DNA from: Methylobacterium sp. CB376
GTDB taxonomy: Bacteria; Pseudomonadota; Alphaproteobacteria; Rhizobiales; Beijerinckiaceae
Assembly (NCBI RefSeq): GCF_029714205.1
Contig: NZ_CP121648.1
Span: 1,302,001-1,366,000, forward strand
Direction of reading: 5' to 3'
DNA: 64,000 nucleotides
Below the pieces are notes generated by a model. The model did no database searches, was not told where the DNA came from, and saw nothing but the letters and a program-made list of their open reading frames with translations. This document shows positions 42,826-63,117 of the stretch, piece by piece; the first letter of the stretch is position 1; each line of letters begins with the position of its first letter. A program made the translations under genes and the position numbers.

Positions 42826-42957
42826 CGCGTGCACTCCAGCGTGAGCCGGGGCTGGCCGAGCGGATGGTCGCGCCGGCGCCCCTCCTACCGCTCGCCGCTC
42901 CTCGTGAGGCGCGACGGACGGTGGGACTAGAGCGCCGGCCCGCGGGGGTGTCACCGC

Positions 42958-42972
42958 TGTAACAGTAACAGT
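42958..42972. promoter_or_regulatory. Tandem GTAAC motif, site A
   Basis: TGTAACAGTAACAGTGATG: two GTAAC pentamers at 6-base spacing, with a third, degraded AGTGAT repeat. It is about 133 bases upstream of the GCG_CRPN gene and downstream of the outer-membrane-type protein gene, in a non-coding gap. The same motif occurs at 51236, 61773 and 63106. Confidence 0.55.
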
Positions 42973-43069
42973 GATGACATCGGGGTTCGGGAGCGGGGAG
43001 GATCTCCCGGCGGGGTCACCTCAGGGGGGCGGCCCCGCGCTTCCCAGGTCCGACGGAGCGGCCCGGATG

Positions 43070-44113
43070 CTAATTCTTCGCGACGAGCGGACGAGGCTCC
43101 GGGGCGGCCTTAGGGGGAGCCACCCAGAGCGGGACGGCCACGGACACGAACAGGGTGGTGCCGACGAACCGGTTCTGCACCTCGACGTCGCGCAGCACCT
43201 TCACCCGCGTCGTGACCGGCGTCTGGCCCACCTTGAAGTCGTAGCCGAGCATGCCGCCCAGCGCCGTCACCCGGCCGCGGAACGGCCCGATGCGGTTGCC
43301 GGGGCCGCTGTCGTCCGTGAACTGCTGGTAGTGGAAGCCGACGAACCCGAGGGTGAACTCCTTCGTCAGGAACTTCGTGGCCGACCACTCGACGTGGAAC
43401 TCGTTGCCCGAGATGTAGCGGGTCGCCGGATTCTCGAAGTTGAAGGTTACGCCGGGCGTCACCGAGAGCTCGTAGCCCGCCACCGGGTCGAGGTAGGTGA
43501 GCGCGCCCGTGAGGTCGATAGCCGGCCGGTTCAGGGCCACGTTCGAGAGCTGGCCGACCTCGTAGGCCCCCGCCGGAATGTTCCCGCTCAGGTTCAAGCT
43601 CCAGTGGAAGTTGCCGGAGTGCCAACCGATGAAGGCGGACACAAAGGGGTCGCCGGCGTTAAAGGTCGAGTCGCTCACTCGTCCCCCAACGACGCGGTCG
43701 ATGCGGGGCGAGTACAGCAGGGTCGCCGCGCTCACGGTGGGCTCGCCGAACGGTATCGCGACCGAGAAGCCGAGTTGTCCCCCGAAGATCTCGACCGGCG
43801 TCACCCAGAGCGGGGTGACGAGATTGATGTTGGTGTCCTGGCGGACGTTCGCGGCCACCACGCCACCCGACTGGAAGACGCGGCCGCCGCCGAGCGCTCC
43901 GGAGTAGTGGTAGAAGTCATCCTCAAAGTAGAAGCCAGGCGGCGGAGTGACGCCCGCCAGGGGACCTCGGATACCCAGCAGGTAAACGCCCGTCGCGGCC
44001 TCGGCGGCCTCCGCCTCCCGCTCGAAGGGAGGGCTGCCGTACACCGCCGCTGCAAGCGCGAGGGCGGCAACGGCCCTCAGCGGCCTTGCGAGAGTGGCCC
44101 CGTTCCCTTTCAT
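43070..44113 (-). CDS. Outer-membrane beta-barrel transporter-like protein (phenol-degradation MetA/SphA type)
   Basis: 347 residues. A signal peptide (AVAALALAAAVYGSPPFEREAEAAEA) precedes repeated amphipathic beta strands: GVYLLGIRGPLAGVTPPPGFYFEDDFYHYSG, LGFSVAIPFG, FVSAFIGWHSGNFHWSLNLSG, TLGFVGFHYQQFTDDSGPG and VQNRFVGTTLFVSVAVPLW. This fits the MetA-pathway/SphA-like outer-membrane protein family. The substrate is unknown. It is minus-strand, upstream of the GCG_CRPN gene, from which it is separated by site A. ATG 44113 was chosen to give a normal signal peptide. Confidence 0.7.
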   Translation of the reverse strand: MKGNGATLARPLRAVAALALAAAVYGSPPFEREAEAAEAATGVYLLGIRGPLAGVTPPPGFYFEDDFYHYSGALGGGRVFQSGGVVAANVRQDTNINLVTPLWVTPVEIFGGQLGFSVAIPFGEPTVSAATLLYSPRIDRVVGGRVSDSTFNAGDPFVSAFIGWHSGNFHWSLNLSGNIPAGAYEVGQLSNVALNRPAIDLTGALTYLDPVAGYELSVTPGVTFNFENPATRYISGNEFHVEWSATKFLTKEFTLGFVGFHYQQFTDDSGPGNRIGPFRGRVTALGGMLGYDFKVGQTPVTTRVKVLRDVEVQNRFVGTTLFVSVAVPLWVAPPKAAPEPRPLVAKN

Positions 44114-44295
44114 GGTTGGCATTCTTCGCCCCGGCGTCGTTGCTACCAAGTCCAGGCTACGGAAGGTCCCGGATGACATAAATAGAAAACCCGAGCATCT
44201 CCTGGTTGCTGTCAACGGTGTTGAATTATTGCAACGGCATATTGCCGGCGAACCGTCGTGCCGAGATCCCTAAAATAAACGCGGAGCAGCATAAG

Positions 44296-44901
44296 ATGCG
44301 GGTGAACGGCTTAATTGATTGCAAGGCTCTCCTCGCATTGGCCGCTCCCGCGCCGTTGGAGCCCGCGCAGGCGGCTCCGCTGCCCGTCGCCGCGATGACC
44401 GATGTCGGGCCGGGCGTCACGCTCGTGCCCGTCGCGCGCCGGCACAACTTCCGCGGCGGCTTCCGTGGCGGCGGCTTCAGGGGCGGAGGCTTCCGTGGCG
44501 GTTTCGCAGGGCGCAGGATGGGCGGGTTCTGGGGTGGGTAGGGACGCCCGGGCTTCGCGGGCGGCGGCATCGGACGCCCCATCGCGGGCCGGGTCAGGCC
44601 TGGCTGGCATGGCGGCGGCGTCCGGCGCCCCATCGCGGGCAGGGTCCGACCGGGCTGGCACGGCGGTGGCGTCAGACGCAACGCCGTCGTGGTGCGCCGG
44701 AACGTTGTGGTCGGCGGCGTCTACCGTCCCTACGGCGCATGGTGGCCGGCCGGTGGCGCCATCGCGGCCGGAGCGGCCCTCGGCTTCGTCGGCGCGGCGA
44801 CGGCCGCCGCCTGGGCGGGCTCCCCGCCGGCCTCCGGCTACTGCTGGTTCTACACCGACGCGTCCCGGACGAAGGGCTTCTGGGACCGCTGCCCTCGCTG
44901 A
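44296..44901 (+). pseudogene. Gly/Arg-rich secreted protein interrupted by an in-frame TAG
   Basis: From ATG 44296 the frame encodes a short signal-like helix, FRGGGFRGGGFRGGF repeats and GRRMGGFWGG, then TAG at 44539-44541. The same frame continues without another stop to TGA at 44901: two copies of GRPIAGRVRPGWHGGGVR, then VVVGGVYRPYGAWWPAGGA, a hydrophobic Ala/Gly helix, and GYCWFYTDASRTKGFWDRC. That ending is typical of small secreted methylobacterial proteins, so the part after the TAG belongs to a real gene. The 15-base gap to aqpZ suggests co-transcription. Confidence 0.6.
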
Positions 44902-44916
44902 CCTGAGGAGGCTTCC

Positions 44917-45651
44917 ATGGACATCCGCAAGTGCGCGGCCGAAGCCATCGGCACGTTCTGGCTCACCTTCGCCGGCTGCGGCAGCGCCGTCGTCGCGGCG
45001 GCCTTCCCGCAGGTCGGCATCGGCCTGCTCGGCGTGTCGCTGGCCTTCGGCCTGACCGTGGTGACCATGGCCTACGCCATCGGCCACATCTCGGGCTGCC
45101 ATCTCAACCCGGCGGTCACGTGCGGGCTCGCCGCGGGCGGACGCTTCCCAGCACGCGAGATCCCCCCTTACGTGGTCTCGCAGGTCATCGGCGGGATCGC
45201 CGCCGCGGCGCTGCTCTACGCAATCGCGAGCGGCGCGCCCGACTTCGACGCGGCGAAGGGATTTGCCGCGAACGGTTACGGCGACCACTCGCCGGGGCAT
45301 TACGGCCTGGTCTCCTGCCTCATGGCCGAGGTGGTGCTCACGATGATGTTCCTGTTCATCATCATGGGGGCGACCCACGGCAAGGCGCCGGTCAGCTTCG
45401 CGCCCCTCGCAATCGGCTTCGCGCTGACGCTGGTCCACCTCGTCGGCATCCCGGTCACGAACCTCTCGGTGAACCCGGCCCGCAGCACGGGCCCCGCCCT
45501 TTTCGCCGGAGGCTGGGCCGTCGGGCAGCTCTGGCTGTTCTGGGTCGCACCGCTGCTCGGGGGGACGTTGGGCGGGATGCTCTACCACTGGATCAGCGCG
45601 GAGCCGTCGGCGCAGGTCACCGGCATGGTGCCGCCCGCCCCGGCGGAGTGA
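44917..45651 (+). CDS. aqpZ: Aquaporin Z-type water channel
   Basis: 244 residues, six membrane helices and both NPA half-helices: HLNPAVTCG and [11 protein letters not shown]. The Arg after the second NPA and the His in [18 protein letters not shown] fit a water-selective filter. Full-length for AqpZ. It permits rapid water flow across the inner membrane during osmotic change. GAGGAGG precedes the ATG. It starts the rightward arm that continues with the sulfatase genes after 94 bases. Confidence 0.92.
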
Positions 45652-45745
45652 GCGGGAGAACGCTGCCGAAACCCCTGACACCCTCGATCCGGGCGCCGCG
45701 CGCACCCGGGCTCCATGACCGCGACCGACCCTTCAGGAGAGGACC

Positions 45746-47404
45746 ATGAGCGAGACACGGCGGCTGAACGACCTCGACGTGAAGCAGGAGGCGGGCCGGG
45801 CGTTCAGCCGCCGCGCGATGCTCCTGGGGGGGACCGCGCTGGCCGCATCCACGATGGGCGCCCAGGCACAGGCGCCCGCGCCGTCCCCGCAGCCCGCGCC
45901 CGCCAGGACCGGCGGCTCGGGCCGACCGGTCAACATCCTGGTCATGTTCGGCGACGATATCGGGCAGTCGAACATCAGCGCCTACACCTTCGGCCTGATG
46001 GGATACCGCACCCCCAACATCGACCGCATCGCCCGCGAGGGCATGATGTTCACCGACTACTATGCCGAGCAGAGCTGCACGGCCGGCCGCTCGTCCTTCA
46101 TCACGGGGCAGTCGACCCTGCGTACGGGGCTGTCGAAGGTCGGCGTGCCCGGCGCGACGGTGGGCCTGCAGAAGGAGGACCCAACCCTCGCCGAGCTCCT
46201 CAAGCCGCTCGGCTACGCCACGGGGCAGTTCGGCAAGAACCACCTCGGCGACCGGGACGAGTACCTGCCGACCAACCACGGCTTCGACGAGTTCTTCGGC
46301 AACCTCTACCACCTCAACGCCGAGGAGGAGCCCGAGCAGCGGACCTACCCGCGCGATCCCGAGTTCCGGAAGAAGTTCGGTCCCCGCGGCGTCCTCAAGG
46401 CGTCGGCGGACGGCAAGATCGAGGACACGGGCCCGCTCACCAAGAAGCGGATGGAGACCATCGACGACGAGACCTCGGCCGCCGCGATGGATTTCATGGA
46501 GCGCCAGGTTCGGGCCAGCAAGCCGTTCTTCTGCTGGTTCAACTCGACCCGGATGCACTTCCGCACCCACGTCGCGGCGGACCGCCGGAGCCCCCCGGGC
46601 CTCACAGCCCGGACCGAGTACGCCGACGGGATGGTCGAGCACGACGGGCACATCGGGCAGCTCTTGAAGAAGCTCGACGACCTCGGCATCGCGAACGACA
46701 CCATCGTCCTCTACACGACCGACAACGGCCCGCACATGAACTCCTGGCCGGACGCCGCGATGACGCCGTTCCGGAGCGAGAAGGACACGAACTGGGAAGG
46801 CGCCTTCCGGGTGCCCTGCATGATCCGCTGGCCCGGGCACATCCAGGCCGGATCGGTTTCGAACGAGATGGTCAGCGGGCTCGACTGGGTGCCGACGCTC
46901 ATGGCGGCCGCAGGTGATCCCGACATCACGGGCAAGCTCCTGAAGGGTCACACGGCCGGTGCGAAGACCTTCAAGGTTCACCTGGACGGCTACAACCAGC
47001 TTCCGTATCTCACCGGGCAGCAGGACCGTAGCGCCCGCAACAAGTTCTTCTACTTCAACGACGACGGCGACCTCGTGGCGATGCGCTACGAGAACTGGAA
47101 AATCGTCTTCGAGGAACAGCGTGCCCCGGGCACGATGCGGATCTGGGCCGAGCCCTTCACTACGCTGCGCATGCCGAAGCTGTTCGACCTGCGGGCGGAC
47201 CCTTACGAGCGCGCCGACATCACATCGAACACCTACTACGACTGGTTCGTCTCGCAGCCCTACCTGATCTTTCCCGCCCAGGAGGAAGTCGCCAAGTTCC
47301 TCGCGACGTTCCGCGAATTCCCCCCTCGCCAGCGGGCGGCGAGCTTCAGCATCGACCAGATCATCGAGAAGATGCGCCGTGCGACAGAGGCGCATAGCCA
47401 GTAG
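45746..47404 (+). CDS. Arylsulfatase, Tat-exported, type I (formylglycine-dependent)
   Basis: 552 residues. A twin-arginine signal (FSRRAMLLGGTALAASTMGA) is followed by the sulfatase fold: VMFGDDIGQSNISAY (metal ligands), CTAGR with C111 as the residue converted to formylglycine, GKNHLGD, TTDNGPHMNSW and RWPGHI. It hydrolyses sulfate esters in the periplasm; the substrate is unknown. The modifying enzyme needed for C111 is encoded three genes downstream of the aquaporin, which makes a self-sufficient module. Tat-exported folded proteins can be modified in the cytoplasm first. AGGAGAGG precedes the ATG. Confidence 0.9.
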   Translation: MSETRRLNDLDVKQEAGRAFSRRAMLLGGTALAASTMGAQAQAPAPSPQPAPARTGGSGRPVNILVMFGDDIGQSNISAYTFGLMGYRTPNIDRIAREGMMFTDYYAEQSCTAGRSSFITGQSTLRTGLSKVGVPGATVGLQKEDPTLAELLKPLGYATGQFGKNHLGDRDEYLPTNHGFDEFFGNLYHLNAEEEPEQRTYPRDPEFRKKFGPRGVLKASADGKIEDTGPLTKKRMETIDDETSAAAMDFMERQVRASKPFFCWFNSTRMHFRTHVAADRRSPPGLTARTEYADGMVEHDGHIGQLLKKLDDLGIANDTIVLYTTDNGPHMNSWPDAAMTPFRSEKDTNWEGAFRVPCMIRWPGHIQAGSVSNEMVSGLDWVPTLMAAAGDPDITGKLLKGHTAGAKTFKVHLDGYNQLPYLTGQQDRSARNKFFYFNDDGDLVAMRYENWKIVFEEQRAPGTMRIWAEPFTTLRMPKLFDLRADPYERADITSNTYYDWFVSQPYLIFPAQEEVAKFLATFREFPPRQRAASFSIDQIIEKMRRATEAHSQ

Positions 47405-47422
47405 GGCGTCAGGAGACCGGCG

Positions 47423-48459
<1,037 letters not shown>

Positions 48460-48463
<4 letters not shown>

Positions 48464-49437
48464 CGCATACGGCCCTTCTCGACCGCCCCCCCGCTCCGGA
48501 CGCGGTCCGGGATATGGTGTTCCTGCCCGGGGGCACGTTCCGCATGGGCTCCAACCGGCACTACCCGGAGGAGGCCCCGGCCCACCGGGTCCGCATCGAC
48601 GGCTTCTGGATCGACCCGACGCCGGTCACGAACGCGCAGTTCCGCGCCTTCGTGCGCGCCACCGGCTACGTGACCATGGCCGAGCGGAAACCCGACGCCG
48701 CCGACTACCCCGGCGCGCTGCCCCACATGCTCCAGGCCGGCTCACTGGTGTTCAAGCCGCCGAAGGGGCCGGTCAACCTACGGGATTGGGGCGCGTGGTG
48801 GCGCTTCAAGTTCGGTGTGCACTGGCGCCGCCCCTACGGGCCAGGCTCCTCCATCGCCGGGCTCGACGAACATCCCGTGGTGCACGTCGCCTACGCCGAC
48901 GCCGAAGCCTACGCGGCCTGGGCGGACAAAGAGCTGCCGACCGAGGCCGAGTGGGAATACGCCGCGCGCGGCGGCCTGGACGGGGCGGAGTTCGCCTGGG
49001 GCGACGAACTCACGCCCGGCGGCCGGCACATGGCCAACACCTGGCAGGGCGCCTTCCCGCACCAGAACCTGGCCGAGGATGGCTATGAGCGCACCTCGCC
49101 GGTCACGGCATTCCCGCCGAACGGCTACGGCCTTTTCGACATGACCGGCAACGTCTGGGAGTGGACGACCGACTTCTACGTCCCGAAGCACCCTGCCGAC
49201 GCGGCGAAGGCCTGCTGCATCCCGCAGAACCCCAGAGGCGGCCAAGCGGACGAGAGTTTCGACCCAAGCCAGCCCGGGATCCGTATCCCGCGAAGGGTGG
49301 TCAAGGGCGGCTCGCACCTCTGCGCGCCGAACTACTGCCGTCGGTATCGCCCGGCTGCCCGCCACCCCCACCCAGTCGACACCTCGACGAGCCACATCGG
49401 GTTCCGCTGCATCCGGCGGTCGGGAGACCGCCCATGA
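48460..49437 (+). CDS. Formylglycine-generating enzyme (aerobic, copper-dependent type)
   Basis: 325 residues, full FGE-sulfatase domain: MVFLPGGTFRMGSN, DGFWIDPTPVTNAQFRAFV, LPTEAEWEYAARGG and GLFDMTGNVWEWT. The two active-site cysteines are C288 and C293 in GGSHLCAPNYCRRYRPA, the five-residue spacing of catalytically competent FGEs, so this is not one of the cysteine-less relatives. It oxidises the cysteine in CxPxR/CxAxR of sulfatases to formylglycine using oxygen. The natural partner is the sulfatase encoded at 45746. It overlaps genes on both sides by four bases. Confidence 0.92.
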
Positions 49438-50704: not shown

Positions 50705-50713
50705 CCGCCGGGT

Positions 50714-51175
50714 TCAACGGGTTTCGGCTCGCCCGTCGCGAAGCGCGCGCTCGATGCGCGCGATGTCCGCGACCGAGAGGCGGATTTCCAGGAGAAGGAA
50801 GACCAGGGCGCTCGTGAACAGCGCCAGGGCGGCGATGAACAGCACCGCGATGGCGGGGCTGTTGTGGAAGCCGAACATGGCGTCGACGAAGGTCAGGATG
50901 ACCATCCAGCCCGTGACGATGCCGCTGTGCACGCAAAGGGTGATGGCCCACCGCGTGTGCCATGCCCGCCGGAGCGCGTCCCGGAGCGTGGCATCCCCCC
51001 ATCGTCCGTCGGCTCGCTCGCGGTCCGCCACCAAGGAGCGAACGACGTCCGCGATGCGGGTGAGGCGCAGGACCAGGAGGGACAACAGCCCGGCGACGGC
51101 TCCGAGCAGGAACGCCGGCGCGGTCGCGAGGCCGATGACGTGCGTGATCTCGTCGACCGGAACGTCCTTGAGCAT
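50714..51175 (-). CDS. DUF2721 integral membrane protein
   Basis: 153 residues from MLKDVPVDEITHVIGLATAP. Three hydrophobic helices (FLLGAVAGLLSLLVLRL, GIVTGWMVILTFVDAMFG, AIAVLFIAALALFTSALVFLLLEI) and a C-terminal DIARIERALRD follow the DUF2721 layout. Inner membrane, function unknown. Divergent from the MoxR gene across 124 bases that contain motif site B, about 60 bases upstream of this start. Confidence 0.8.
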   Translation of the reverse strand: MLKDVPVDEITHVIGLATAPAFLLGAVAGLLSLLVLRLTRIADVVRSLVADRERADGRWGDATLRDALRRAWHTRWAITLCVHSGIVTGWMVILTFVDAMFGFHNSPAIAVLFIAALALFTSALVFLLLEIRLSVADIARIERALRDGRAETR

Positions 51176-51235
51176 CGTCCTCGCGCCGGGCTGGGCCCGA
51201 GACTGAGGTCGCAGGCCGCCTTCGGTTGGCAAGGC

Positions 51236-51250
51236 TGTAACGGTAACAGG
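51236..51250. promoter_or_regulatory. Tandem GTAAC motif, site B
   Basis: CTGTAACGGTAACAGG: GTAAC twice with 6-base spacing; the outer CTG/CAG also makes it partly palindromic. It lies between the divergent DUF2721 and MoxR genes, about 61 and 50 bases from their start codons, an ideal place to control both. Confidence 0.6.
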
Positions 51251-51299
51251 GCTGACTTGGGCGTCCGCTCGTCCAAACTCCCGCGGGGAGCGCACCGGC

Positions 51300-52307
<1,008 letters not shown>

Positions 52308-52320
52308 CGAGGGGCACGCG

Positions 52321-53325: not shown

Positions 53326-53816
53326 ACCCGGATCCCGGCAGCCTGGAGAACCTACGGGACCTTGCGGTGCCGGCCCCGGTGTCGTTCTGGCCCTCGGCAC
53401 CCGGCACCTGGATCGTGTTGGCGGGGCTCGCGGCCATGCTGGCCCTTTTCCTGCGGGATGTCCGGAGACGGCACCGCGCCAATGCCTATCGACACGCGGC
53501 TCTCGCGGAACTCGACGCCCTCGCGGCGTCGCCCCAGCCGTATGCCCGTGCCGTCGAGCGCGTCTCGGAGGTGATGAAGCGGGCGGCGCTGGTGGCCTTC
53601 CCGCGCGAGCAGGTCGCGCCCCTGAGCGGTGCGAGGTGGGCCGATTTCCTCACCGGAAGCGGCAGGGGCAGGCTCGATGCGCCCGCGTTGCGCAGGCTGC
53701 TTTGCGAAGCCTACGGCGCCCATGGTCCGGAGCCTGCCGACGTCCGCAGGTTGATCGAGCAGGCCCGCATCTGGGTCGCCGAGCACCGGCCAGCAGCCAA
53801 GGCAGGGGCGGGCTAA
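53322..53816 (+). CDS. DUF4381 membrane protein
   Basis: 164 residues. A single membrane helix (TWIVLAGLAAMLALFL) follows a short periplasmic stretch with PAPVSFWPSAPG, and the remainder is cytoplasmic and helical (AALAELDALAASPQPYARAV, LRRLLCEAYGAHGPEPADVR). This is the DUF4381 layout found in MoxR/VWA operons. It sits between DUF58 and the first VWA gene, overlapping the former by four bases. Confidence 0.8.
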   Translation: MNPDPGSLENLRDLAVPAPVSFWPSAPGTWIVLAGLAAMLALFLRDVRRRHRANAYRHAALAELDALAASPQPYARAVERVSEVMKRAALVAFPREQVAPLSGARWADFLTGSGRGRLDAPALRRLLCEAYGAHGPEPADVRRLIEQARIWVAEHRPAAKAGAG

Positions 53817-53818
53817 GC

Positions 53819-54847
53819 GTGCTCACGTTCTCTTATCCCTGGCTTTTCCTTCTGGCTCCCCTGCCGGCCCTGGCGTGGTGGCTCCTGCCGGCGCACGTGA
53901 CATGTCACGCGGGACTGCGCGTCCCCTTCTTCGCCCGGCTAGTCGCCCTTACGGGCCGGAACCCGCACGCGGGCGGGCTGGTGGCGCCGCGAAGCCTCCC
54001 GCGCCTCGCGACGCTTGTCGCCTGCTGGCTTCTCGCGCTCGCCGCCCTGATGCGCCCGCAATGGATCGAGGCGCCGCTCCATCGGGACCAGCCGACGCGC
54101 GACCTCCTCCTGTTGGTGGACCTCTCCGGGTCGATGGACACGAAGGATTTCACCGACGCGTCCGGCAGGACCGTCGACCGGCTGACGGCCGTGAAGGCCG
54201 TGCTCGACGACTTCCTGTCACGCCGCAAGGGCGACCGCGCCGGGGTCGTGGTCTTCGGCGACGCGCCCTTCGCGCTCGTGCCGTTCACCACGGACCTCGA
54301 CCTCTGCCGCGAGATGCTGCGCGATACGGTCGTCGGGATGGCGGGCCCTCGCACGGCCCTAGGCGACGCCATCGGACTCGGGATTGCCCTGTTCGACCGG
54401 AGCACGGTGAAGGCCAAGACCATCATCGCCCTCACCGACGGCAACGACACGGCCAGCCAGGTGCCGCCGACCGAGGCCGCGGGTGTCGCCAAGGACAAGG
54501 GCATCGTCATCCACACGGTCGCCATCGGGGACCCCTCGACGGTCGGCGAGGACAAGCTCGACGAGACGGCACTGAAGGACGTGGCGTCCGCGACGGGCGG
54601 CGGCTTCTTCCGCGCCCTCGACCGCGACGAGCTCGCCCGTATCTACGGCCGCCTGGACGGGACCGAGACCCGCCGGATCGACACGGTCACGTTCCGCCCG
54701 CGGAAGGACGTCTACTGGGTCCCGCTCGCGGTGGCCCTGCTCGTCTCGCTGCTCGCGCAAGCCGTTCACCTGCTTCTACGGGGCCGCTCCACGTCGCGTG
54801 CGCCCCTGTCCGGGCCCGGGCTGGCGTCGAAGGCGAGGACCTCGTGA
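53819..54847 (+). CDS. VWA-domain membrane protein, BatA-like
   Basis: 342 residues from a GTG start two bases after the preceding stop. Two N-terminal hydrophobic segments (YPWLFLLAPLPALAWWLL; LATLVACWLLALAALM), a VWA domain with an intact MIDAS (LLLVDLSGSMDTKDF; TALGDAIGLGIALF; IIALTDGNDTAS) and a C-terminal membrane helix. This is the BatA/aerotolerance type. The metal site suggests protein-ligand binding in the periplasm or at the membrane face. It overlaps the next VWA gene by one base (TGATG). Confidence 0.85.
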   Translation: MLTFSYPWLFLLAPLPALAWWLLPAHVTCHAGLRVPFFARLVALTGRNPHAGGLVAPRSLPRLATLVACWLLALAALMRPQWIEAPLHRDQPTRDLLLLVDLSGSMDTKDFTDASGRTVDRLTAVKAVLDDFLSRRKGDRAGVVVFGDAPFALVPFTTDLDLCREMLRDTVVGMAGPRTALGDAIGLGIALFDRSTVKAKTIIALTDGNDTASQVPPTEAAGVAKDKGIVIHTVAIGDPSTVGEDKLDETALKDVASATGGGFFRALDRDELARIYGRLDGTETRRIDTVTFRPRKDVYWVPLAVALLVSLLAQAVHLLLRGRSTSRAPLSGPGLASKARTS

Positions 54848-55761
54848 TGAGCGCCCTCGCGGCCTTCCACTTCGAGCGCCCGGCCTGGCTCCTGCTGCTG
54901 CTGCCGGCAGCGGCGCTCTGGTACTTGGAGCGCCGGCGGTCGGACGAGGCCCAGCGCTGGCGGCGCGTGATCGACCCGGAACTCCTCCGGCACCTGCTCG
55001 TTGGGCGGGAGCGCCGGTCGTGGTTCTCGCCGAACGCGCTGCTCCTCGCCGTCTGGTTCGTCACCGCGGCCGCTGTTGCGGGACCCGTGTGGGAGCGCGA
55101 GCCGTCACCCTTCGCGGATGCCAAGCCCCCTGTGTTGGTCGTCCTTCGGGTCGCGCCCACGATGATGACCCCGGACCTGGCGCCGACCCGCCTCGACCGG
55201 GCGCGCCAGAAGCTGGCCGACCTGCTCAAGCTGCGCGAGGGCGCTTCCACCGGCCTCATCGCCTACTCGGGCTCCAGCCATCTCGTCCTACCGCCGACGC
55301 CGGACGCCACCGTCGTCCTGAACCTGGCGCAGGCCCTCTCGCCCGAGATCATGCCCCGCGAGGGCGACGACATCGCGGGCGCCGCCGCGCTGGCCGACCG
55401 CGTCCTCGCGGGAGGCGGCCACGGCGGCTCGATCCTCCTGATGGCCGACACCACGGCCATCTCGGCCGGTGGCCTCGGCCTTTCCCGCCTCGGTCACCCC
55501 GCGACGGTTTTCGCGCTGCTGCCGCCGGACCAGGATCGAGGACGCCTCGCCGACGTCGCTCGCGCTCTCGATGCGGACCTCGTCGCGACCACGGTGGATC
55601 AGGCCGATGTCGACGTGGTCGCCCGACGGCTCGACCGCACCGGCCGCGCGGCCGAGGTGGCGGGCGAAGGGCAGCACTGGAGGGAGGCGGGCTATTGGCT
55701 GACGCCGCTCCTCGCCCTCCTCACGCTTCTCTGGTTTCGCCGCGGTTGGGTGACGGCATGA
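54847..55761 (+). CDS. VWA-domain-like membrane protein, BatB-like with degenerate MIDAS
   Basis: 304 residues. N-terminal helices (PAWLLLLLPAAALWYLE; NALLLAVWFVTAAAVAGPVW), a VWA-like domain and a C-terminal helix (YWLTPLLALLTLLWF). In the position of the DxSxS metal site it has VVLRVAPTMMTPD, so metal binding is probably lost, whereas the neighbouring VWA protein keeps it. A heterodimer with one metal-competent partner is a reasonable inference. Confidence 0.75.
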   Translation: MSALAAFHFERPAWLLLLLPAAALWYLERRRSDEAQRWRRVIDPELLRHLLVGRERRSWFSPNALLLAVWFVTAAAVAGPVWEREPSPFADAKPPVLVVLRVAPTMMTPDLAPTRLDRARQKLADLLKLREGASTGLIAYSGSSHLVLPPTPDATVVLNLAQALSPEIMPREGDDIAGAAALADRVLAGGGHGGSILLMADTTAISAGGLGLSRLGHPATVFALLPPDQDRGRLADVARALDADLVATTVDQADVDVVARRLDRTGRAAEVAGEGQHWREAGYWLTPLLALLTLLWFRRGWVTA

Positions 55762-56420
55762 TCCGCCTCGCCAAGCCACCGCACCCCTACGTCCTCGTGT
55801 CACTGGCCCTGTTCCTGGCGCTCGGTGCGACCGCCTACAACGTCGGCTTGCGGAACCTCCTGCTCACGCCGGACCAGCGCGGGCGCTTCCTGATGGCGCG
55901 AGGCCGTCCGGGCGAGGCGGCTTCCGCGTTCCGCGATCCGGTCTGGCGCGGCGTGGCTCTGTTCCGGGCGGGCGACTTCAAGGGGGCGGCGCAAGCGTTC
56001 GGAGGCGTCGACACGGCGGAGGGCGCCTATGACCAGGGCAACGCCCTGGTGATTCTCGGCAAGTACGACGACGCCGTGAGGCGCTACGACCGGGCGCTGG
56101 CTCTCCGCCCCGGATGGGAGGATGCGGCCGCCAACCGCGAGATCGCGCGCCTGCGGGCCGAGCGCATGCGCCAGGAGGGAGGCGAGACCGGGGACACCGA
56201 GTCGAGCCCCGACGAGGTCGTCTACGACAAGGGCAAGAAGGGCGGCGCGGACACCACGGTCGAGGGCGACGGGAAGCCCATGTCGGACGAGGCGGTCCGG
56301 GCCCTCTGGCTGAAGCGGGTGCAGACGCGGCCGGCAGACTTCCTGCGGGTGAAGTTCGCCTACCAACTCCAAACGGCGTCCGGCGCCGATTCCGGGGCGC
56401 CCTCGGGGACACGACCATGA
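55758..56420 (+). CDS. TPR protein, BatC-like
   Basis: 220 residues. An N-terminal membrane helix (YVLVSLALFLALGATAYNV), then TPR units (GVALFRAGDFKGAAQAFGGV, QGNALVILGKYDDAVRRYDRALALRPGWEDAAANREIARL cut across two repeats) and a charged disordered tail with a final helix (LWLKRVQTRPADFLRVKFAY). Corresponds to BatC in Bat operons, a periplasmic TPR scaffold. Four-base overlaps on both sides. Confidence 0.75.
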   Translation: MIRLAKPPHPYVLVSLALFLALGATAYNVGLRNLLLTPDQRGRFLMARGRPGEAASAFRDPVWRGVALFRAGDFKGAAQAFGGVDTAEGAYDQGNALVILGKYDDAVRRYDRALALRPGWEDAAANREIARLRAERMRQEGGETGDTESSPDEVVYDKGKKGGADTTVEGDGKPMSDEAVRALWLKRVQTRPADFLRVKFAYQLQTASGADSGAPSGTRP

Positions 56421-57691
56421 GGAGGCTGGTCGCTGCCCTCGCGTTGGCAGTTGCTTGGGCGAGCACCGCAGCGGCGAAGGCAGCCGAGGTCGTGGTCCGG
56501 ACCCAGGTCGACGCGACAAGAGGCATCGTCGTGGGCCAACCGGTTCACCTCCGGGTGGACGTGCTCTTCCCCGGCAGCATGCCGCGCCCGCCGCGGGTCA
56601 GGGTCGGCGACGCTCCGGGTGCCCAGGTCCTGCGCTTCGAGACCCAGGGCGTCACCACGAACGACGAGATCGGTGGCCAGCCTTACGTCGGGCAACAGTT
56701 CGAGTTCGTCGTGTTCCCGCGCCGGGGAGGAGCCATCGAGATCCCGGCCGCAGAGGTCACGCTGCTCGACGCTGCGGGTGACCCAGCGGGAACGGCAAGG
56801 GGCGAGGCGCGGCGCCTCGTCGTCACCGTGCCTCCGCGGCTCGACGCATCCGGACCCGTCATCGCCGCGGAACAGGTCGACGCCACCCAGACCTGGGAGC
56901 CCGACCCTGCGCAGGCGCGGCTCAAGCCCGGCGGCGCGTTGGTGCGCGCGATCCGCCGCAGCGCCGACGGCGTTCCGGCTATGGGTATGGCCGACCTCGC
57001 CTTCACCGCTCCCGAGGGCGTCCGGATCTACGTCGACCCGCCGCGCTCCGAGGACCGGATGAACCGCGGCGCCGTCACCGGGTCGCGTGTCGACCGGGTG
57101 ACCTACGTCTTCGAGAAGCCGGGCAGCTACGACCTGCCGGCCGTCGTCCAGCCCTGGTGGGATCTGGACGAAGCGCGCGCGCGGGCGGTGACGCTTGCCG
57201 GCGTCAGGGTAGCCGTAGCTCAGGCAGCCTCTGCGACGGAGCCGGCGCCTCGCCGCGGAAGGACATGGGCTTGGGCCGCCGGAGCGTTGCTCGGGATCGC
57301 TTTGCTGCTGGGTCTCGCATTGGCCCTCCGACGCCGGCAGGGCCGAGACGCCGGCACCACGGAAGCGACGGCACTGTCCGAGTTGCGCCGGGTTGCCCGG
57401 AGCGGCGATGCCCCGGCGACTTACCGGGCGCTCGCGATATGGCTTGCCCGGCTACCTTCCGGCGTGCGGCGGGACGCGAGGCATGATCGGCGCCTCGCGC
57501 CGCTCGCCGGCGAACTGGAGCGTACCTTGTTCGGTGAGGGGGGCTCCTGGTCGGCCGACGCGGGGCGGCAGCTCCGCAACGTCGTCCCGAAGGTCCGCAG
57601 GGATCTGGCGAAGGAGGTCATCAGAGCGAAGCGAATGGACCTGCCGCCGTTGAACCCCGCCGCGCCTGCGTCCAGCCATCGGCCCGCCTGA
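56417..57691 (+). CDS. BatD-like oxygen-tolerance protein
   Basis: 424 residues. A signal peptide ending AAKAAE, two or three immunoglobulin-like beta domains in the periplasm (VRTQVDATRGIVVGQPVHLR, GQQFEFVVFPRRGGAIEIPA, VTYVFEKPGSYDLPAVVQPW), one membrane helix (TWAWAAGALLGIALLLGLAL) and a cytoplasmic C-terminus. This is the BatD arrangement. Last gene of the MoxR operon; convergent with the DUF1254 operon, ends 41 bases apart. Confidence 0.8.
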   Translation: MRRLVAALALAVAWASTAAAKAAEVVVRTQVDATRGIVVGQPVHLRVDVLFPGSMPRPPRVRVGDAPGAQVLRFETQGVTTNDEIGGQPYVGQQFEFVVFPRRGGAIEIPAAEVTLLDAAGDPAGTARGEARRLVVTVPPRLDASGPVIAAEQVDATQTWEPDPAQARLKPGGALVRAIRRSADGVPAMGMADLAFTAPEGVRIYVDPPRSEDRMNRGAVTGSRVDRVTYVFEKPGSYDLPAVVQPWWDLDEARARAVTLAGVRVAVAQAASATEPAPRRGRTWAWAAGALLGIALLLGLALALRRRQGRDAGTTEATALSELRRVARSGDAPATYRALAIWLARLPSGVRRDARHDRRLAPLAGELERTLFGEGGSWSADAGRQLRNVVPKVRRDLAKEVIRAKRMDLPPLNPAAPASSHRPA

Positions 57692-57732
57692 AGGCCACGA
57701 AGGTGGGGACCGGGACGCCTCCGGAGTGGAGG

Positions 57733-59208
57733 TCAATCCGCTCGCTGAACCGCGGGCGGAACCCAGGAACCGTCGACCACGGCGGTCCTCGGCCAGTAGG
57801 CTCGGACGTAGAGCGTGAAGTCCCCGTCCTTGGGCGCCGGCAACCAGTTGTCGCGCTGGGCCTCCGGGGGCGGCTCCGACTGCACGTACACCGTGAGCGA
57901 GCCGTCCGGGCCGTACTTCATGGCCTTGTTCTTGGTGCCGAGCGAGTAGCGCTGGATCGCGTTCGGCACGAAGAAGTGCGCCGCGTCGTAGAGCGTCAGC
58001 GACCAGAAGCCGTCGACCGGCGGGGTCTCTCCCTTCGCGAAGGTCACCGTGTAGCGTTTGGCGCCGTTGAGCCGCGCCCCTGAGACATCGAGATCTTGGT
58101 AGTAATACTTTGTCTCGTTGGGTGCGTTGACGAAGATGTTCGATTTTGCGGCCGCCGTCCGAGTGAAGTAGTCGACGCCGAACGCGGCGTTGTTGGACGT
58201 CGTGCTCCAGTGATCCTTGAGCTGCACGCCCCAGTTGCGAAACTGGAGGAGCGGGTCAACCATCTCCCTCTCGGCCTTGGAGGCCTCGTCGGCCATGGCC
58301 TGCTTGAGGGCCGGGTCGCGTCGAGCAGCGGCGAGGACGGCGGTGACCTGCGCGTACCGGGCTTCCTCGCCCGGCAGCGGCGGCGCGTCCCTCAGCACCA
58401 ACGGCAGCTCGTCGAAGAACTTCTCCGGCAACACCCACTTCGTCTCTCCCGAGCCACCTCCTTCCCCCGGCGAGCCCAACTTGGGCAGCTGCCGCCAGTC
58501 GTGCCGCTTCATCGTCCCGTCGAACTGCGCGAGCGGGTAGGCGTCGATCCCGGAGATGGCCGACTGGATGGCCCGTCGGTCCTCGGGCGTGTCGTCCATG
58601 AAGACGCGAGGCAGCACGAACGCCGTGCCCGTCTTGGCCCGGAACACCCTGGCGATCCCCTTCGGGACCTCGCCCGTCCAGTTGGGGCCGACCAGCAGGT
58701 AGAAGCCCGGTCGCGTGCCGTACATGGAGCCGAGCTGGGCGAAGCCGTCGGTGCGGGTATCCACCACCTGGTAGACCCAGAAGCGGCTCCCGAAATCGGG
58801 GACCTGAAGCACGACCGGCGTCTCGTCGAGCGCCGCGATGGAGGCTCCGTACACGACGTCCTGGTTCGGGCAGGCAACCCAGCGCTGCTCGGGTGCGATG
58901 TAATCGTGCAGCATGGCCATGGCGTTCAGGGGCGCGAACGCCAGCACGCCGTTCATCAATCCAGCCTCACGAACCTGGCTGTTGGCCTGCCGGCGATTGT
59001 AGATGTTCTCCATCGGCCAGGCCCAGAAGTAGGCGTCGCGCGCGACCATGCGGGCATAGGCTTCCGTGATCTTGACCGCGCTGTCTGGTGCCGGCGGCAG
59101 CGCGGCCGCCCAGTCAGGCGACGGCGCGAGGGCTTCGGCGCGCGCGGCCGGCGTCGCCGCAAGCAGCGCGAGCGCGGCCGCGGTCATGATGTGGCGCCTA
59201 GGGGTCAT
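57733..59208 (-). CDS. DUF1254/DUF1214 domain protein, secreted
   Basis: 491 residues. A signal peptide (MTAAALALLAATPAARAEA) leads into the DUF1254 domain (YFWAWPMENIYNRRQANSQV, FAPLNAMAMLHDYIAPEQRW, VACPNQDVVYGASIAALDET), and the C-terminal DUF1214 part is GFWSLTLYDAAHFFVPNAIQ, RYSLGTKNKAMKYGPDGSLT, WLPAPKDGDFTLYVRAYWP. Family function is unknown. ATG 59208 overlaps the preceding stop by four bases and has the signal peptide right after it. It is the last gene of the leftward operon. Confidence 0.88.
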   Translation of the reverse strand: MTPRRHIMTAAALALLAATPAARAEALAPSPDWAAALPPAPDSAVKITEAYARMVARDAYFWAWPMENIYNRRQANSQVREAGLMNGVLAFAPLNAMAMLHDYIAPEQRWVACPNQDVVYGASIAALDETPVVLQVPDFGSRFWVYQVVDTRTDGFAQLGSMYGTRPGFYLLVGPNWTGEVPKGIARVFRAKTGTAFVLPRVFMDDTPEDRRAIQSAISGIDAYPLAQFDGTMKRHDWRQLPKLGSPGEGGGSGETKWVLPEKFFDELPLVLRDAPPLPGEEARYAQVTAVLAAARRDPALKQAMADEASKAEREMVDPLLQFRNWGVQLKDHWSTTSNNAAFGVDYFTRTAAAKSNIFVNAPNETKYYYQDLDVSGARLNGAKRYTVTFAKGETPPVDGFWSLTLYDAAHFFVPNAIQRYSLGTKNKAMKYGPDGSLTVYVQSEPPPEAQRDNWLPAPKDGDFTLYVRAYWPRTAVVDGSWVPPAVQRAD

Positions 59209-60542
59209 GGGCGGGCTCCCTCGATCCTCGCGACAGACGGCGGCGTCCACTCGCATCGCTTCACGACCTCCCTGGGCACGTAGGCACGGAACGTCAGGGA
59301 GAACGGCCGGCCCTCGGCCGAGGGAAGCCAATTCGTCTTCGGAACGCCGGCGACCGGCTTCGGCCCGACCGCGATCTTCAGGGAGCCGTCGACTTCCTTC
59401 GTCAGCGTCGAGAGGTTGTTGAAGTTGAAGCGGTTGAGGGGGTTGGGCACGACCCGGTAGTCGGGCACCCCGACCAGGATCACGGACCAGTAGGCGTCGA
59501 CCACGGCCTCGGGCAATCGGTCGGCTGCGAAGTGCATGACGTAGCCCCCGCTCCCGTCGAGGGGCTTCTCCTCGGCGTCCCGGGTGGCAACGAAGTAGAC
59601 GACCTCATTCGAGGTGTTCGCCCAGATCCCGGCGTAATTGGCCGCGGTGCGCCGCCGGAAGTCACCCCCGTAATTGCCGCTGCCCGTCCCACAGAGCCAG
59701 TGGTTGCGGTACGGGGCCGACTTGGTCAGGGCATCTTCCCGGAAACGGCGGATCACGTCGCGCAGCTTCGCGTCGACCTCGGCGCGGGCTCCCGCGCTCG
59801 ACGCCGCGTAGGCCGACACGGCGCGGACCTTCTGCTGCATCTCGGCGGAGTTGGGAGCCACGTCGAGCGCGCTCGCGAGCTTCGCGTCCGCGTCGTCGAA
59901 GATCTCGACCCCGACGAGGTCCTGGTTGCCGAACATCGGCAGCCGAGGTGGTGGAGCGGCCTCCGGCGTGCCCAGGGTCGTCACCTTGAAGGCGCGCTGC
60001 AGCGCCAGCGCGCCATCGGTGTCGCCCTTGATCTCGATGCGGGCGAGCATCTTCGCCTTGCCGGAGTGAAGCTCGATCCGCCCAGCGCCGGGCGGGACGG
60101 CCACGTTCGAGCCGGGCTTCACGAGCGCGAAGGTGCCGTAGGGCTTCGTCGGGAAGGTGCGATCGTTGATGTTGGCGATGACCTCGCCCCATTCGTCGAG
60201 GATCTGCGCCGTGTAGTACCGTCCCTTCACCTCGGGGATCTCCAGCAGCGCCGCCGCCTTGTCGTCGGTCGCGAACCAAGCTTCGAGATAGGAAACGTCG
60301 AAATTCGGGTTGACGAAGTCGGCCGATCCCACGGGATTGTAATTAATCCTGTTGTAGGAGAAGTCGGGCCCGCTCCTGTCGATCATCTCCTGGCGGATGA
60401 CCAGGGCACGGCCGAGCAGGTAGACGTAGGCGTCGTCGATGTCCTTGTCGGTGACGGGTGCCGTCTGGGCCGCGGCCAGGCCGGTAGCCGTGATCAGCGC
60501 CAGCACCGCCAGGCCCAATTTCCTCGTGAGGGTGGTTCCCAT
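59205..60542 (-). CDS. DUF1254/DUF1214 domain protein, second copy
   Basis: 445 residues with signal peptide (LGLAVLALITATGLAAAQ). The layout parallels the protein encoded next: YLEAWFATDDKAAALLEIPEVKGRYYTAQILDEWGEV in the first half (here read in parts), and VDAYWSVILVGVPDYRVVPN with NWLPSAEGRPFSLTFRAYVP at the end. It is clearly related to but diverged from the downstream copy, so the pair may form a complex. Periplasmic; unknown function. Confidence 0.82.
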   Translation of the reverse strand: MGTTLTRKLGLAVLALITATGLAAAQTAPVTDKDIDDAYVYLLGRALVIRQEMIDRSGPDFSYNRINYNPVGSADFVNPNFDVSYLEAWFATDDKAAALLEIPEVKGRYYTAQILDEWGEVIANINDRTFPTKPYGTFALVKPGSNVAVPPGAGRIELHSGKAKMLARIEIKGDTDGALALQRAFKVTTLGTPEAAPPPRLPMFGNQDLVGVEIFDDADAKLASALDVAPNSAEMQQKVRAVSAYAASSAGARAEVDAKLRDVIRRFREDALTKSAPYRNHWLCGTGSGNYGGDFRRRTAANYAGIWANTSNEVVYFVATRDAEEKPLDGSGGYVMHFAADRLPEAVVDAYWSVILVGVPDYRVVPNPLNRFNFNNLSTLTKEVDGSLKIAVGPKPVAGVPKTNWLPSAEGRPFSLTFRAYVPREVVKRCEWTPPSVARIEGARP

Positions 60543-60554
60543 TCGCCGCCTCGC

Positions 60555-61490
60555 TCAGAACGGGTTGGCGTAGTTCAGGATCGCGCTCTGCCGGAGCAGG
60601 ACCTTCCGGATGACGTGCGCCTGCTGCACGTGGTCCGTGTAGATCGCCGCGGTCCCGGTGCTGCCGGCCGGCAGGCGGCGGGCCACCTCAGCGTCGTCGA
60701 GCGTGAAGCGAACCACGAACGGCGCGGACTGGATGTCGGTCGGCGCCACCGCGGAACCCCCAAACTGCGCCTGCCCCGTCGCTATGGCCTGCAGGACGGC
60801 CTCGACCCGCCCGGAGTGGACGGTACCCGGGAGCGTCTTGAAGGTGATCTCGACGGGCTGACCGGGCTCGATGTAGCGCGCGTAGATCTGGGGGATCTCC
60901 GCGCCGAGGAGGGTGTCGCCGGTATCGATGAAGGCCATCACCGGCGACTGCGCGGTGACACGCGCCCCCTTTCGTAGAGTCAGGTTGGTCACGTAGCCGG
61001 CGGCCGGGGCCCGCACGGTGGTCTTGTCGAGGTTCCACTTGGCGCCCTCAAGCTGGGCGCGCAACTGGTCAGCCTCGGCCTGTCTCTGCTCGACGTCGAA
61101 GGCGCGCCCGGTCCCGCGGCTCTGGAGCTGGGACATCTCGGCCAGTCGGGTCTCAGCGAGCTTCAGCTGCGCCCCGATGGCTTCGACCTGCGTCTGATAG
61201 GGCGTCGGATCGATCCGGAAGAGGACGTCGCCTTCCTTGAGCGGGGTATTCGCCTTGACCGGGACGTCAATGACCTCGCCGGCGACAGAGGGGACGATCT
61301 GGACCGAGTTGCGGATGACCGCTGCCGGCCCTGAGGGCGCCCCCCAGCCCATCGGGATGAACAGCCCGACGAGCAGGAGGATGAGGACGAGCGCGGGTGA
61401 GAGCTTCCAGAACAGGTTGAACGGGATGAACCGCAGCCAGACGAACAGGACCAGGAGGGCGATGTAGCTGTTGAGCAGGAAGACGATCAT
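60555..61490 (-). CDS. HlyD-family membrane-fusion protein (YiaV-like)
   Basis: 311 residues. N-terminal membrane helices (YIALLVLFVWLRFIPFNLFW; LVLILLLVGLFIPMGW), then the biotinyl-lipoyl-like hairpin (VPSVAGEVIDVPVKANTPLK, VRAPAAGYVTNLTLRKGARV) around an alpha-helical coiled coil, and a beta-barrel end. This is the HlyD/EmrA family; pairing with a DUF3302 protein immediately upstream matches the YiaV-YiaW/YibH arrangement. No dedicated export ATPase or RND pump is adjacent. Start overlaps the DUF3302 stop by four bases. Confidence 0.85.
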   Translation of the reverse strand: MIVFLLNSYIALLVLFVWLRFIPFNLFWKLSPALVLILLLVGLFIPMGWGAPSGPAAVIRNSVQIVPSVAGEVIDVPVKANTPLKEGDVLFRIDPTPYQTQVEAIGAQLKLAETRLAEMSQLQSRGTGRAFDVEQRQAEADQLRAQLEGAKWNLDKTTVRAPAAGYVTNLTLRKGARVTAQSPVMAFIDTGDTLLGAEIPQIYARYIEPGQPVEITFKTLPGTVHSGRVEAVLQAIATGQAQFGGSAVAPTDIQSAPFVVRFTLDDAEVARRLPAGSTGTAAIYTDHVQQAHVIRKVLLRQSAILNYANPF

Positions 61491-61732
61491 CGGTCCGCGT
61501 CCCGCCGTGCAGGGGCATCGACGTAGGCCCAGACCAGGATCAGCGGCCAGAATACGAAGCCGAAGACGAGGGTGGCCCAGCTGCCGACGGTCACGGCCTG
61601 CGCCCAAGGATGCCCGCGTCTGCGCGCGATGCGGCCGGGCATGACGCCGAGCGCGACGAACGTCGCGATGAGCGTCGCCACCACGACCAGCAGGACGATC
61701 CAGGCGAAGATGTCGATGAACGGCATGGACAT
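61487..61732 (-). CDS. DUF3302 inner-membrane protein (YiaW-like)
   Basis: 81 residues from MSMPFIDIFAWIVLLVVVAT, with two membrane helices (the second WATLVFGFVFWPLILVWAYV) separated by a basic loop GRIARRRGHPWAQA, the DUF3302 pattern. First gene of the four-gene leftward operon with the HlyD protein and the two DUF1254 proteins. A start at 61750 is also possible. Site C lies 41-52 bases upstream. Confidence 0.82.
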   Translation of the reverse strand: MSMPFIDIFAWIVLLVVVATLIATFVALGVMPGRIARRRGHPWAQAVTVGSWATLVFGFVFWPLILVWAYVDAPARRDADR

Positions 61733-61772
61733 GATGCGTGACGGTCGCACGCGCGCGGATGCCCCTGAAGCC

Positions 61773-61787
61773 TGTAACTGTAACTGC
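61773..61787. promoter_or_regulatory. Tandem GTAAC motif, site C
   Basis: CTGTAACTGTAACTGCC: two exact TGTAAC hexamers in tandem. It lies in the gap between the winged-helix gene end (61854) and the DUF3302 start (61732), placed to control the DUF3302-HlyD-DUF1254 operon. Confidence 0.6.
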
Positions 61788-61853
61788 CCGCGGACACCTT
61801 GCCGGCTGCGCTGGGAGACGTCACCGCGAGGCTTGCGACGGTTCGAGCGGCTC

Positions 61854-62678
61854 TCAGGCGACCACGTCCGTCACGCTTTGCGCGACGGCGTCCGCGAGCG
61901 CATCGATGCGTGCTCCCTCAGGGACGGCGTCCTCCATCCCGTCGACGGCACCGGACGCCTTCACCTCGCCGCTCCGCGGGTCGCTGACCGACCACGAGTA
62001 TCGGCACCCTTCCGCGATCCCGTGCACGGAGACGTCGAGCGCGAGGACCGCCTCGGGCTGCGAGAGCAGTTTCCTGATGGCATGAGCGGCGGCCCTGTGC
62101 TCGGGAGGAGGTTTCACGAAGACGCGGAACCTCCTCCCGGCGAGGGCCCTGACGATGGCCTGGAGGAAGATGTCCCCCTTGGCCATCGCACACCGGTCGC
62201 GTCGGTCGCTCCGGTGCGTGACCACCAGGGCCATTCGACCATGGGTGGCTAGGTCTTCTTCTGTGGCGTGGGGCAGTGGGTGACAGGCGGAAGTGGCGGC
62301 CGAGGGTGCCGGTGGCAGCCGGGCCGCCTCGCAGACCGGTATGTACGACCCCGGCCGCAGGACCAGCCGAACCGGGTCATGGGTGCCGGGGCCATCGTAA
62401 TAGGCGGCGAGGGCCGACCTGATCCGGGTCGCCTCGATCCGGACGATGGGATCCTTGCCGGGGTCGAAATCCGGACCCCGGCCGAAGACGTCCACCCCGA
62501 TGGTGTAGGCTTTGACGCGCCCGCCGCGCCCGGCCAGTGCCTCGGCGACCACGAACGAGAGGAAGCGACGGTTGCGCTCAGACAACCGCAAGCCTTCGGC
62601 TGCCAGGAGTTCGCGAAATACCCGTTCGAGCTCCGGCGACGGCTCGTTCGAGTTAGCCGAGGAATAATCAGCATCCAT
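61854..62678 (-). CDS. Winged-helix regulatory protein (N-terminal domain of TPR/cyclase-type regulators)
   Basis: 274 residues. Residues 10-115 match the domain seen at the N-terminus of some alphaproteobacterial cyclase/TPR regulators: LRLSERNRRFLSFVVAEALA, VKAYTIGVDVFGRGPDFDPG, DPIVRIEATRIRSALAAYYD and VRLVLRPGSYIPVCE. It resembles a DNA-binding winged helix. The C-terminal part has TolB-like alternation (VFVKPPPEHRAAAHAIRKLL, YSWSVSDPRSGEVKASGAVD), and no membrane helix is evident. It is a candidate regulator of the GTAAC motif sites since it lies within that region; this is inference. Confidence 0.65.
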   Translation of the reverse strand: MDADYSSANSNEPSPELERVFRELLAAEGLRLSERNRRFLSFVVAEALAGRGGRVKAYTIGVDVFGRGPDFDPGKDPIVRIEATRIRSALAAYYDGPGTHDPVRLVLRPGSYIPVCEAARLPPAPSAATSACHPLPHATEEDLATHGRMALVVTHRSDRRDRCAMAKGDIFLQAIVRALAGRRFRVFVKPPPEHRAAAHAIRKLLSQPEAVLALDVSVHGIAEGCRYSWSVSDPRSGEVKASGAVDGMEDAVPEGARIDALADAVAQSVTDVVA

Positions 62679-62780
62679 CGGATCCTCCGCAGACCGCGTT
62701 AGAACCTAGGTGGATCTTGCCCGATTACGGTGCTCGAGCGACCCCTGATGAGCCGGGAAGGCTACGCATAGGTTAACGTT

Positions 62781-63026
62781 CTATCCTAAGTTGCGCAGGA
62801 TGTCTTCCTCGATGGCACCCGCGAGCTGCCGGTACTCCTCCGCCCGCTCGGGCCCGACCGGCTCGGTCGATTTCGCCCAGTAGTCCGTCGCCTCGCAGGC
62901 CGCCTCGTAGGCTTCGCACAGGTCGCGGAAATTGGCGTCTTCGGCGGCCTTGCCGCGAAGCGTCTCCCGTCGGTCGGGATACCGGAGCAAAAGCCTCGCG
63001 AGGCCGCTTCTCTCGGAACGCTCCAT
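62781..63026 (-). CDS. Small hypothetical protein
   Basis: 81 residues from MERSERSGLARLLLRYPDRR. Predicted three-helix soluble protein (DANFRDLCEAYEAACEATDY, ERAEEYRQLAGAIEEDILRN). Similar short proteins occur widely in Proteobacteria without known function. ATG 63026 was chosen over 63077, which adds a basic low-quality extension. Site D is about 80 bases upstream, linking it to the same putative regulon as the cassette. Confidence 0.6.
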   Translation of the reverse strand: MERSERSGLARLLLRYPDRRETLRGKAAEDANFRDLCEAYEAACEATDYWAKSTEPVGPERAEEYRQLAGAIEEDILRNLG

Positions 63027-63105
63027 CGAAGCCTCCCGGAATTGAGTCCGTCGGCCGCTTGCCACCGACCCCCCCATAATGCGCCCCGCGGGCGCGTGCT
63101 GGCCC

Positions 63106-63117
63106 TGTTACAGTTAC
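63106..63117. promoter_or_regulatory. Tandem GTAAC motif, site D (read on the minus strand)
   Basis: The plus strand reads CTGTTACAGTTAC; the minus strand therefore reads GTAACTGTAACAG, the same tandem pentamer with 6-base spacing. It lies in the gap between the minus-strand small gene (start 63026) and the PPK2 remnant on the plus strand (63198). Confidence 0.55.

Follow-up and report, generated by a model that had tools for sequence, protein, structure and literature searches.

An inverted-repeat element at four promoters of a Methylobacterium gene cassette and a winged-helix protein proposed as its regulator

Introduction

Winged-helix transcription factors of the OmpR/PhoB family bind tandem direct repeats spaced about 10–11 bp apart, and one-component regulators of the CadC/ToxR type combine an N-terminal winged helix with a C-terminal sensor and have a single membrane span. 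RtrC of Caulobacter, a formerly unnamed alphaproteobacterial winged-helix factor, recognizes a pseudo-palindromic site and, in the part of its description used here, acts in a manner that depends on the position of that site (PMC9648850). Here we analyze a short repeated element found in a 64,000-nucleotide stretch of the 7.69-Mb genome of Methylobacterium sp. CB376 (NZ_CP121648.1, positions 1,302,001–1,366,000; this whole stretch is called the window, and its coordinates are used throughout), where it lies upstream of several genes of one cassette. The element probably serves as operator for the winged-helix/TolB-N protein that the gene at 61854–62678 encodes; a homodimer of this protein would bind CTGTWACnGTWACAG and most likely activate sigma-70 promoters. 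What the computations show directly is where the sites lie, how far they are conserved, how symmetric they are, how they are spaced from the promoter hexamers, and that they co-occur with the regulator gene.

Compared with these systems, the locus differs from the OmpR/PhoB type in that the window protein and its 67 homologs have no Pfam match to that family, in that the predicted winged helix is N-terminal and no receiver domain is present, and in that a single base pair separates the inverted arms of the predicted operator. With regard to the CadC/ToxR type, the two-domain structural model has a C-terminal TolB-N/CadC-like fold. The likeness to RtrC, an alphaproteobacterial winged-helix factor with a (pseudo-)palindromic site, is drawn from its published description; as far as that description was used, RtrC is MarR/MepR-like and has dozens of sites, whereas the regulator proposed here seems confined to one cassette. 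A literature search over titles and abstract openings returned no paper on this gene set, regulator or operator. The system would offer a testable operator–regulator pair for a DNA-binding family that matched no Pfam or NCBIfam model. It would also place in a single regulon several poorly understood genes (DUF3302, DUF1254, DUF2721, MoxR/VWA and, in Bosea, a sulfatase along with the enzyme that activates it), and the promoter coordinates give a route to the inducing signal and hence to the function of the gene set.

Four sites in the window

Searching the window for GTAACNGTAAC with at most one mismatch gave exactly four matches, all of them perfect (42959, 51237 and 61774 on the plus strand, 63107 on the minus strand), where shuffled windows gave 0.23 on average and 2 at most, none of 100 reaching four. 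A 15-bp weight matrix derived from the 68 collected sites described below, and used for scoring both the window and other loci, recovered the same four sites at 21.4–27.0 bits and left everything else in the 64 kb at or below 6 bits. The original prediction, which had placed a shared motif at four promoters and nowhere else in the window, is borne out on both points. Measured to the start codons, the operators lie about 133 bp (GCG_CRPN), 61 bp (DUF2721), 52 bp (moxR) and 41 bp (DUF3302) away, and about 80 bp away for the small gene, given a start at 63026, which is favoured by 9 of 11 homologs of 81 residues.

The whole host genome contains six exact copies of GTAACNGTAAC, four within these 20 kb and the remaining two (loci L005 and L006) both inside open reading frames. 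This total is not above that of the reversed-pattern control (6 vs. 5), and the operator 13-mer with one mismatch gives six sites, four of them in the window, against eight for its reversed control. Since totals are close to those of the controls, the anomaly consists in the clustering of the sites and not in their number; random scatter over the genome, which would have spoken against the original prediction, is not what the scan found. A genome-wide regulon was considered and rejected on these one-mismatch counts.

The element is an inverted repeat

Sixty-eight sites were hand-picked from the retrieved loci at no more than one mismatch to TGTWACNGTWACA. They define the inverted repeat CTGTWACnGTWACAG, whose arms, each read inwards to the centre, are TGTWAC with a free W, and fall into 32 direct-looking sites, 28 of the form GTAACnGTTAC, 6 of the form GTTACnGTAAC and 2 others. 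The middle base is free (G in 28, C in 18, A in 13, T in 9). The outer bases are T in 49/68 and A in 61/68, followed by C in 49 and G in 39; the invariance of the core and the outer T/A counts are partly due to site selection, whereas the choice at W, the middle base and the promoter spacing are not. At the moxR operator the W pair is A/A in the window, T/T in two relatives (genomes G070 and G022) and A/T in seven of eight Bosea genomes, and the DUF3302, small-gene and GCG_CRPN sites likewise switch form between orthologs.

On this sequence comparison, the "tandem" motif is one form of a degenerate palindrome. The binding of a direct repeat by a tandem-binding protein, as first proposed, agrees with the direct form of all four window sites and of 24 of the 32 Methylobacterium sites in the collected set; this excess of the mixed form, however, occurs among sites that are related by descent. 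That part of the original prediction did not hold, because orthologous promoters of relatives carry the inverted form, the switch involving changes at the two W positions only, and because the flanks (T...A, C...G) mirror each other around a variable middle base, where a direct TGTAAC repeat would need T in the middle. The direct forms in the window, moreover, point towards the gene at moxR and the small gene and away from it at GCG_CRPN and DUF3302. We regard a direct-repeat operator as very improbable.

Co-occurrence of the operator and the winged-helix gene

Close orthologs of the 61854–62678 product are found in 8 of 111 genomes of the genus (E ≤ 8.8e-85; the next best match has 5.7e-23). 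All eight contain TGTWACNGTWACA, in a total of 25 sites that without exception lie in cassette loci (reversed control, 4), whereas the other 103 genomes have 4 sites against 18 for the control. The fraction of GTWACNGTWAC matches located in cassette loci is 4/7 in the genome of the window, 4/4 in Methylorubrum rhodesianum (G042), 5/7 in Methylobacterium sp. WSM2598 (G041), 6/7 in G022, 3/4 in G019, 3/5 in G006 and 4/7 in G043, the totals in these seven genomes being no higher than those of the reversed controls (7, 5, 11, 7, 7, 6 and 44). The sites recur at orthologous promoters in WSM2598 (L037) and M. rhodesianum (L038), which provides the conservation upstream of orthologous operons whose absence would have told against a common operator. 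Around 22 other regulator-domain loci of the genus (L089–L110), GTWACNGTWAC does not occur within about 1.5 kb.

Order and family searches identified full-length relatives of the regulator beyond the genus in G433 (Hansschlegelia-type), in G224 and in 11 Bosea genomes, seven of which contain the exact 13-mer. Because the whole Bosea set shows no enrichment of exact 13-mers (17 across 67 genomes, against 31 for the reversed control), the evidence from this genus rests on the position of the sites: among 21 ortholog loci, 15 have a site at no more than one mismatch, and 12 have one on both sides of the small gene–regulator pair. The dyad test over these loci used no preset motif and also listed GC-rich dyads, e.g. 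CCGG-CGCG (12/21). Within Bosea cassette loci a site precedes moxR in 8/8 cases, the first sulfatase gene in 8/9, the small gene in 6/8 and DUF3302 in 1/3. In G1062 the moxR operator and the regulator gene are on different contigs. The matrix score reaches at least 16.6 bits in 18 of the 21 loci, the others being L167 (12.5), G433 (9.0) and G019, where the regulator gene stands apart from the cassette and its locus scores −2.3. In the G433 locus (L140) the regulator is retained, the HAD and small genes match in part only, and no good operator was found.

Only 3 of 47 loci with paralogous domains reach 12.5 bits (17.0, 16.6 and 12.5), a set that does not include L113 and L115, which come from genomes with sites close to the long form of the domain. 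Long forms with sites nearby are present in G393 and G457; ten more distant ones (L153–L162) have no site at up to one mismatch, and in L153 a 16.8-bit palindrome lies about 8 kb away. A Rhizobiales locus (R129_N, L039) combines a regulator-like domain, the small gene and symmetric sites, and contains no DUF3302, HlyD or moxR gene.

The possibility that the operator is tied to the target genes and not to the regulator was examined and rejected: 26 loci without a regulator hit (L040–L065) contain no 13-mer at up to one mismatch, and among them the DUF3302-HlyD-DUF1254 operons of Microvirga (L040, L043) and Bradyrhizobium (L045) have neither regulator nor site. In Methylobacterium, Bosea and other Rhizobiales the site thus tracks the winged-helix gene and its 81-residue neighbour, not the target genes. 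This co-occurrence across genomes supports both a common operator, with these genes as the centre of a regulon, and the early choice of the winged-helix gene as the local candidate regulator. A Bosea locus without cassette (L192, position 9848) contains a long mirror-symmetric site, AAAGATGTGTAACAGTTACACACCTTT, which perhaps belongs to another regulator.

The proposed regulator and its small neighbour

The 61854–62678 product matches no Pfam or NCBIfam family and has no Pfam match at E ≤ 1, and Trans_reg_C is not among the 14 Pfam families matched at this threshold by any of the 68 members (the window protein and 67 homologs). A search of the Protein Data Bank sequences with the regulator profile gave no match. 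Since comparison of the whole structural model was dominated by the C-terminal domain, the DNA-binding domain was modelled alone, and the models suggest an OmpR-like winged helix followed by a TolB-N-like domain. By eye, no transmembrane span is obvious in the window protein; two long relatives, L151 and L152, have a hydrophobic stretch. Within the order, 121 of 397 genomes encode related domains, and L190 encodes the domain alone in a 142-residue open frame, a similar frame in L189 being cut by the locus end. A Bosea contig (L188) contains five long winged-helix relatives (about 600 residues) in a row, with a symmetric GTTACnGTAAC upstream of the first.

Residue 84 of the recognition helix is Thr or Val where half-sites are of the A type and Gly or Asn where they are of the T type (few lineages, compared by eye); the residue after Ala83 may set A or T at the free half-site position.

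Of the 21 regulator loci, 20 contain the small gene, which also adjoins sites in G019, a genome that has its winged-helix gene at another place, so that the DNA-binding factor might be the 81-residue protein or another cassette product, with the winged-helix protein as a bystander. The small protein, however, has no family match at all, whereas a winged-helix fold is predicted for its neighbour, and sites also occur near long or minimal forms of the winged-helix domain. We judge this alternative improbable.

Promoter geometry and mode of action

With the sites oriented towards their genes and scored with hand-set consensus tables, most promoter classes have a −35-like hexamer beginning about 3 bp past the 13-mer and a −10-like hexamer 24–26 bp past it. 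In permutation tests over eight promoter classes, none of 5000 permutations reached the observed statistic for either offset; over five promoter types the counts were 2 and 11 in 5000. The −10-like offset is best at 38 for the small gene in Bosea and at 36 for DUF3302 in Methylobacterium (26 being second). For the −35-like hexamer, an offset other than 3 scores best at the small gene in either genus and at the sole Bosea DUF3302 site. When the −10 hexamer is set at −12 to −7, the operator centre falls near −44 in most classes; the predicted hexamers thus place the site upstream of −35 at a fixed spacing, as expected of a sigma-70 activator. The moxR promoter of G070 reads CTGACA...CATAAT. In WSM2598 (L078, 474–549) two moxR operators lie 63 bp apart, apparently in a duplicated promoter segment.

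We infer that a homodimer of the 61854–62678 product would bind the inverted repeat near −44, abut the −35 element, contact RNA polymerase and activate transcription of the GCG_CRPN gene, the moxR-VWA operon, the DUF3302-HlyD-DUF1254 operon and perhaps DUF2721, and that it would also activate its own small gene–regulator operon, presumably in response to a signal. Activation is favoured by the location of the site, whose centre is close to −44 and which adjoins the −35 element, a position that is read as activating because of the RtrC precedent: in the portion of that study used here, activated promoters have sites upstream of the −10/−35 elements and repressed ones have overlapping sites (PMC9648850). 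The same regulator and operator could instead serve repression, with the dimer abutting or overlapping −35 and blocking RNA polymerase until a signal is bound. The end of the 13-mer is only 3 bp from the −35-like hexamer, part of which the full footprint could cover, and two of the promoters, those of moxR and GCG_CRPN, might work unaided given their fair −35 elements; the centre upstream of −35 in most classes and the RtrC pattern speak against it, and we consider repression unlikely, if the most serious of the alternatives.

A nearly fixed position relative to −10 could also be that of a promoter element for an alternative sigma factor, or the sites could be a non-regulatory repeat. Such readings seem hardly credible, as the symmetric site is followed downstream by separate −35-like and −10-like hexamers and is missing from the 22 domain loci and the 26 regulator-less loci described above.

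Island and mobility

The cassette lies on an island of about 39.5 kb, with copies of a 47-bp direct repeat at its two ends (34967 and 74487, the latter in L066). An integrase stands beside a tRNA gene, and the 3' end of the tRNA is repeated at the opposite boundary, as in tRNA-integrated islands. A plasmid search found no match for the GCG_CRPN promoter and, for the regulator, partial relatives only (274 records, none covering 80%). In WSM2598, placed in the same species (G081), that tRNA is occupied by a shorter element (about 12 kb), and the cassette is located elsewhere; the stretch common to both, at about 90% identity, begins at 42433, where the GCG_CRPN gene has its 3' end, and stops at 63174, a little beyond the operator of the small gene. 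The regulator thus seems to move together with its operators and target genes. More broadly, and only tentatively, winged-helix domains of one family spread through the Rhizobiales, some soluble, some membrane-anchored and some minimal, might read inverted GTWAC repeats at activator positions, with the regulator, its operators and the sulfatase/MoxR/HlyD set moving between genomes as one self-regulated unit.

Genes of the cassette

The features are collected in Table 1. Further members of the cassette are a DUF4344 putative peptidase and an aquaporin. In the matrix scan of the 64 kb the aquaporin-sulfatase-FGE genes have no operator of their own; in G006, G019 and G022, GCG_CRPN and the aquaporin or HAD gene have a site between them.

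Table 1. Coordinates of the cassette genes, operators, promoter hexamers and island features in the window
Feature	Coordinates	Strand	Remarks
tRNA-Arg (ACG), attachment site of the cassette-bearing island	34935..35011	+	
Phage-type integrase of the island	35024..36175	-	
GCG_CRPN secreted repeat protein gene (NF047412), predicted target	42436..42825	-	ATG at 42825
-10-like TCTAGT, GCG_CRPN promoter	42926..42931	-	Retained in several relatives
-35-like GTGACA, GCG_CRPN promoter	42949..42954	-	3 bp from operator 13-mer; from sequence and offset test
Operator, GCG_CRPN gene	42957..42971	-	CTGTTACTGTTACAG on - strand; matrix 27.0 bits
Sulfatase (PF00884), HAD-like and sulfatase-modifying (FGE-type) genes	45746..49437	+	
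DUF2721 gene, divergent, possible second target	50714..51175	-	
Operator between DUF2721 (-) and moxR (+)	51235..51249	+	Matrix 26.8 bits
-35-like CTGACT, moxR promoter	51252..51257	+	
-10-like CAAACT, moxR promoter	51274..51279	+	CATAAT in G070 and G019
moxR - DUF58 - DUF4381 - VWA - VWA - TPR - BatD-like operon, predicted target	51300..57691	+	
DUF3302 - HlyD - DUF1254/1214 - DUF1254/1214 operon, predicted target	57733..61732	-	
Operator upstream of DUF3302, 3' of winged-helix gene	61772..61786	-	Matrix 22.0 bits
Winged-helix + TolB-N-like protein gene, proposed regulator	61854..62678	-	
81-residue protein gene, adjoining regulator gene upstream	62784..63026	-	
-10-like CATTAT, small-gene promoter	63076..63081	-	CATTAT/CATGAT among small-gene promoters
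Operator upstream of small gene–regulator pair	63105..63119	-	Possible autoregulation; matrix 21.4 bits

An envelope or sulfate-ester role of the gene set is a guess. By eye, the sulfatase contains SCTAGR, a Cys-type site, and both it and the HAD protein have twin-arginine-like N-termini.

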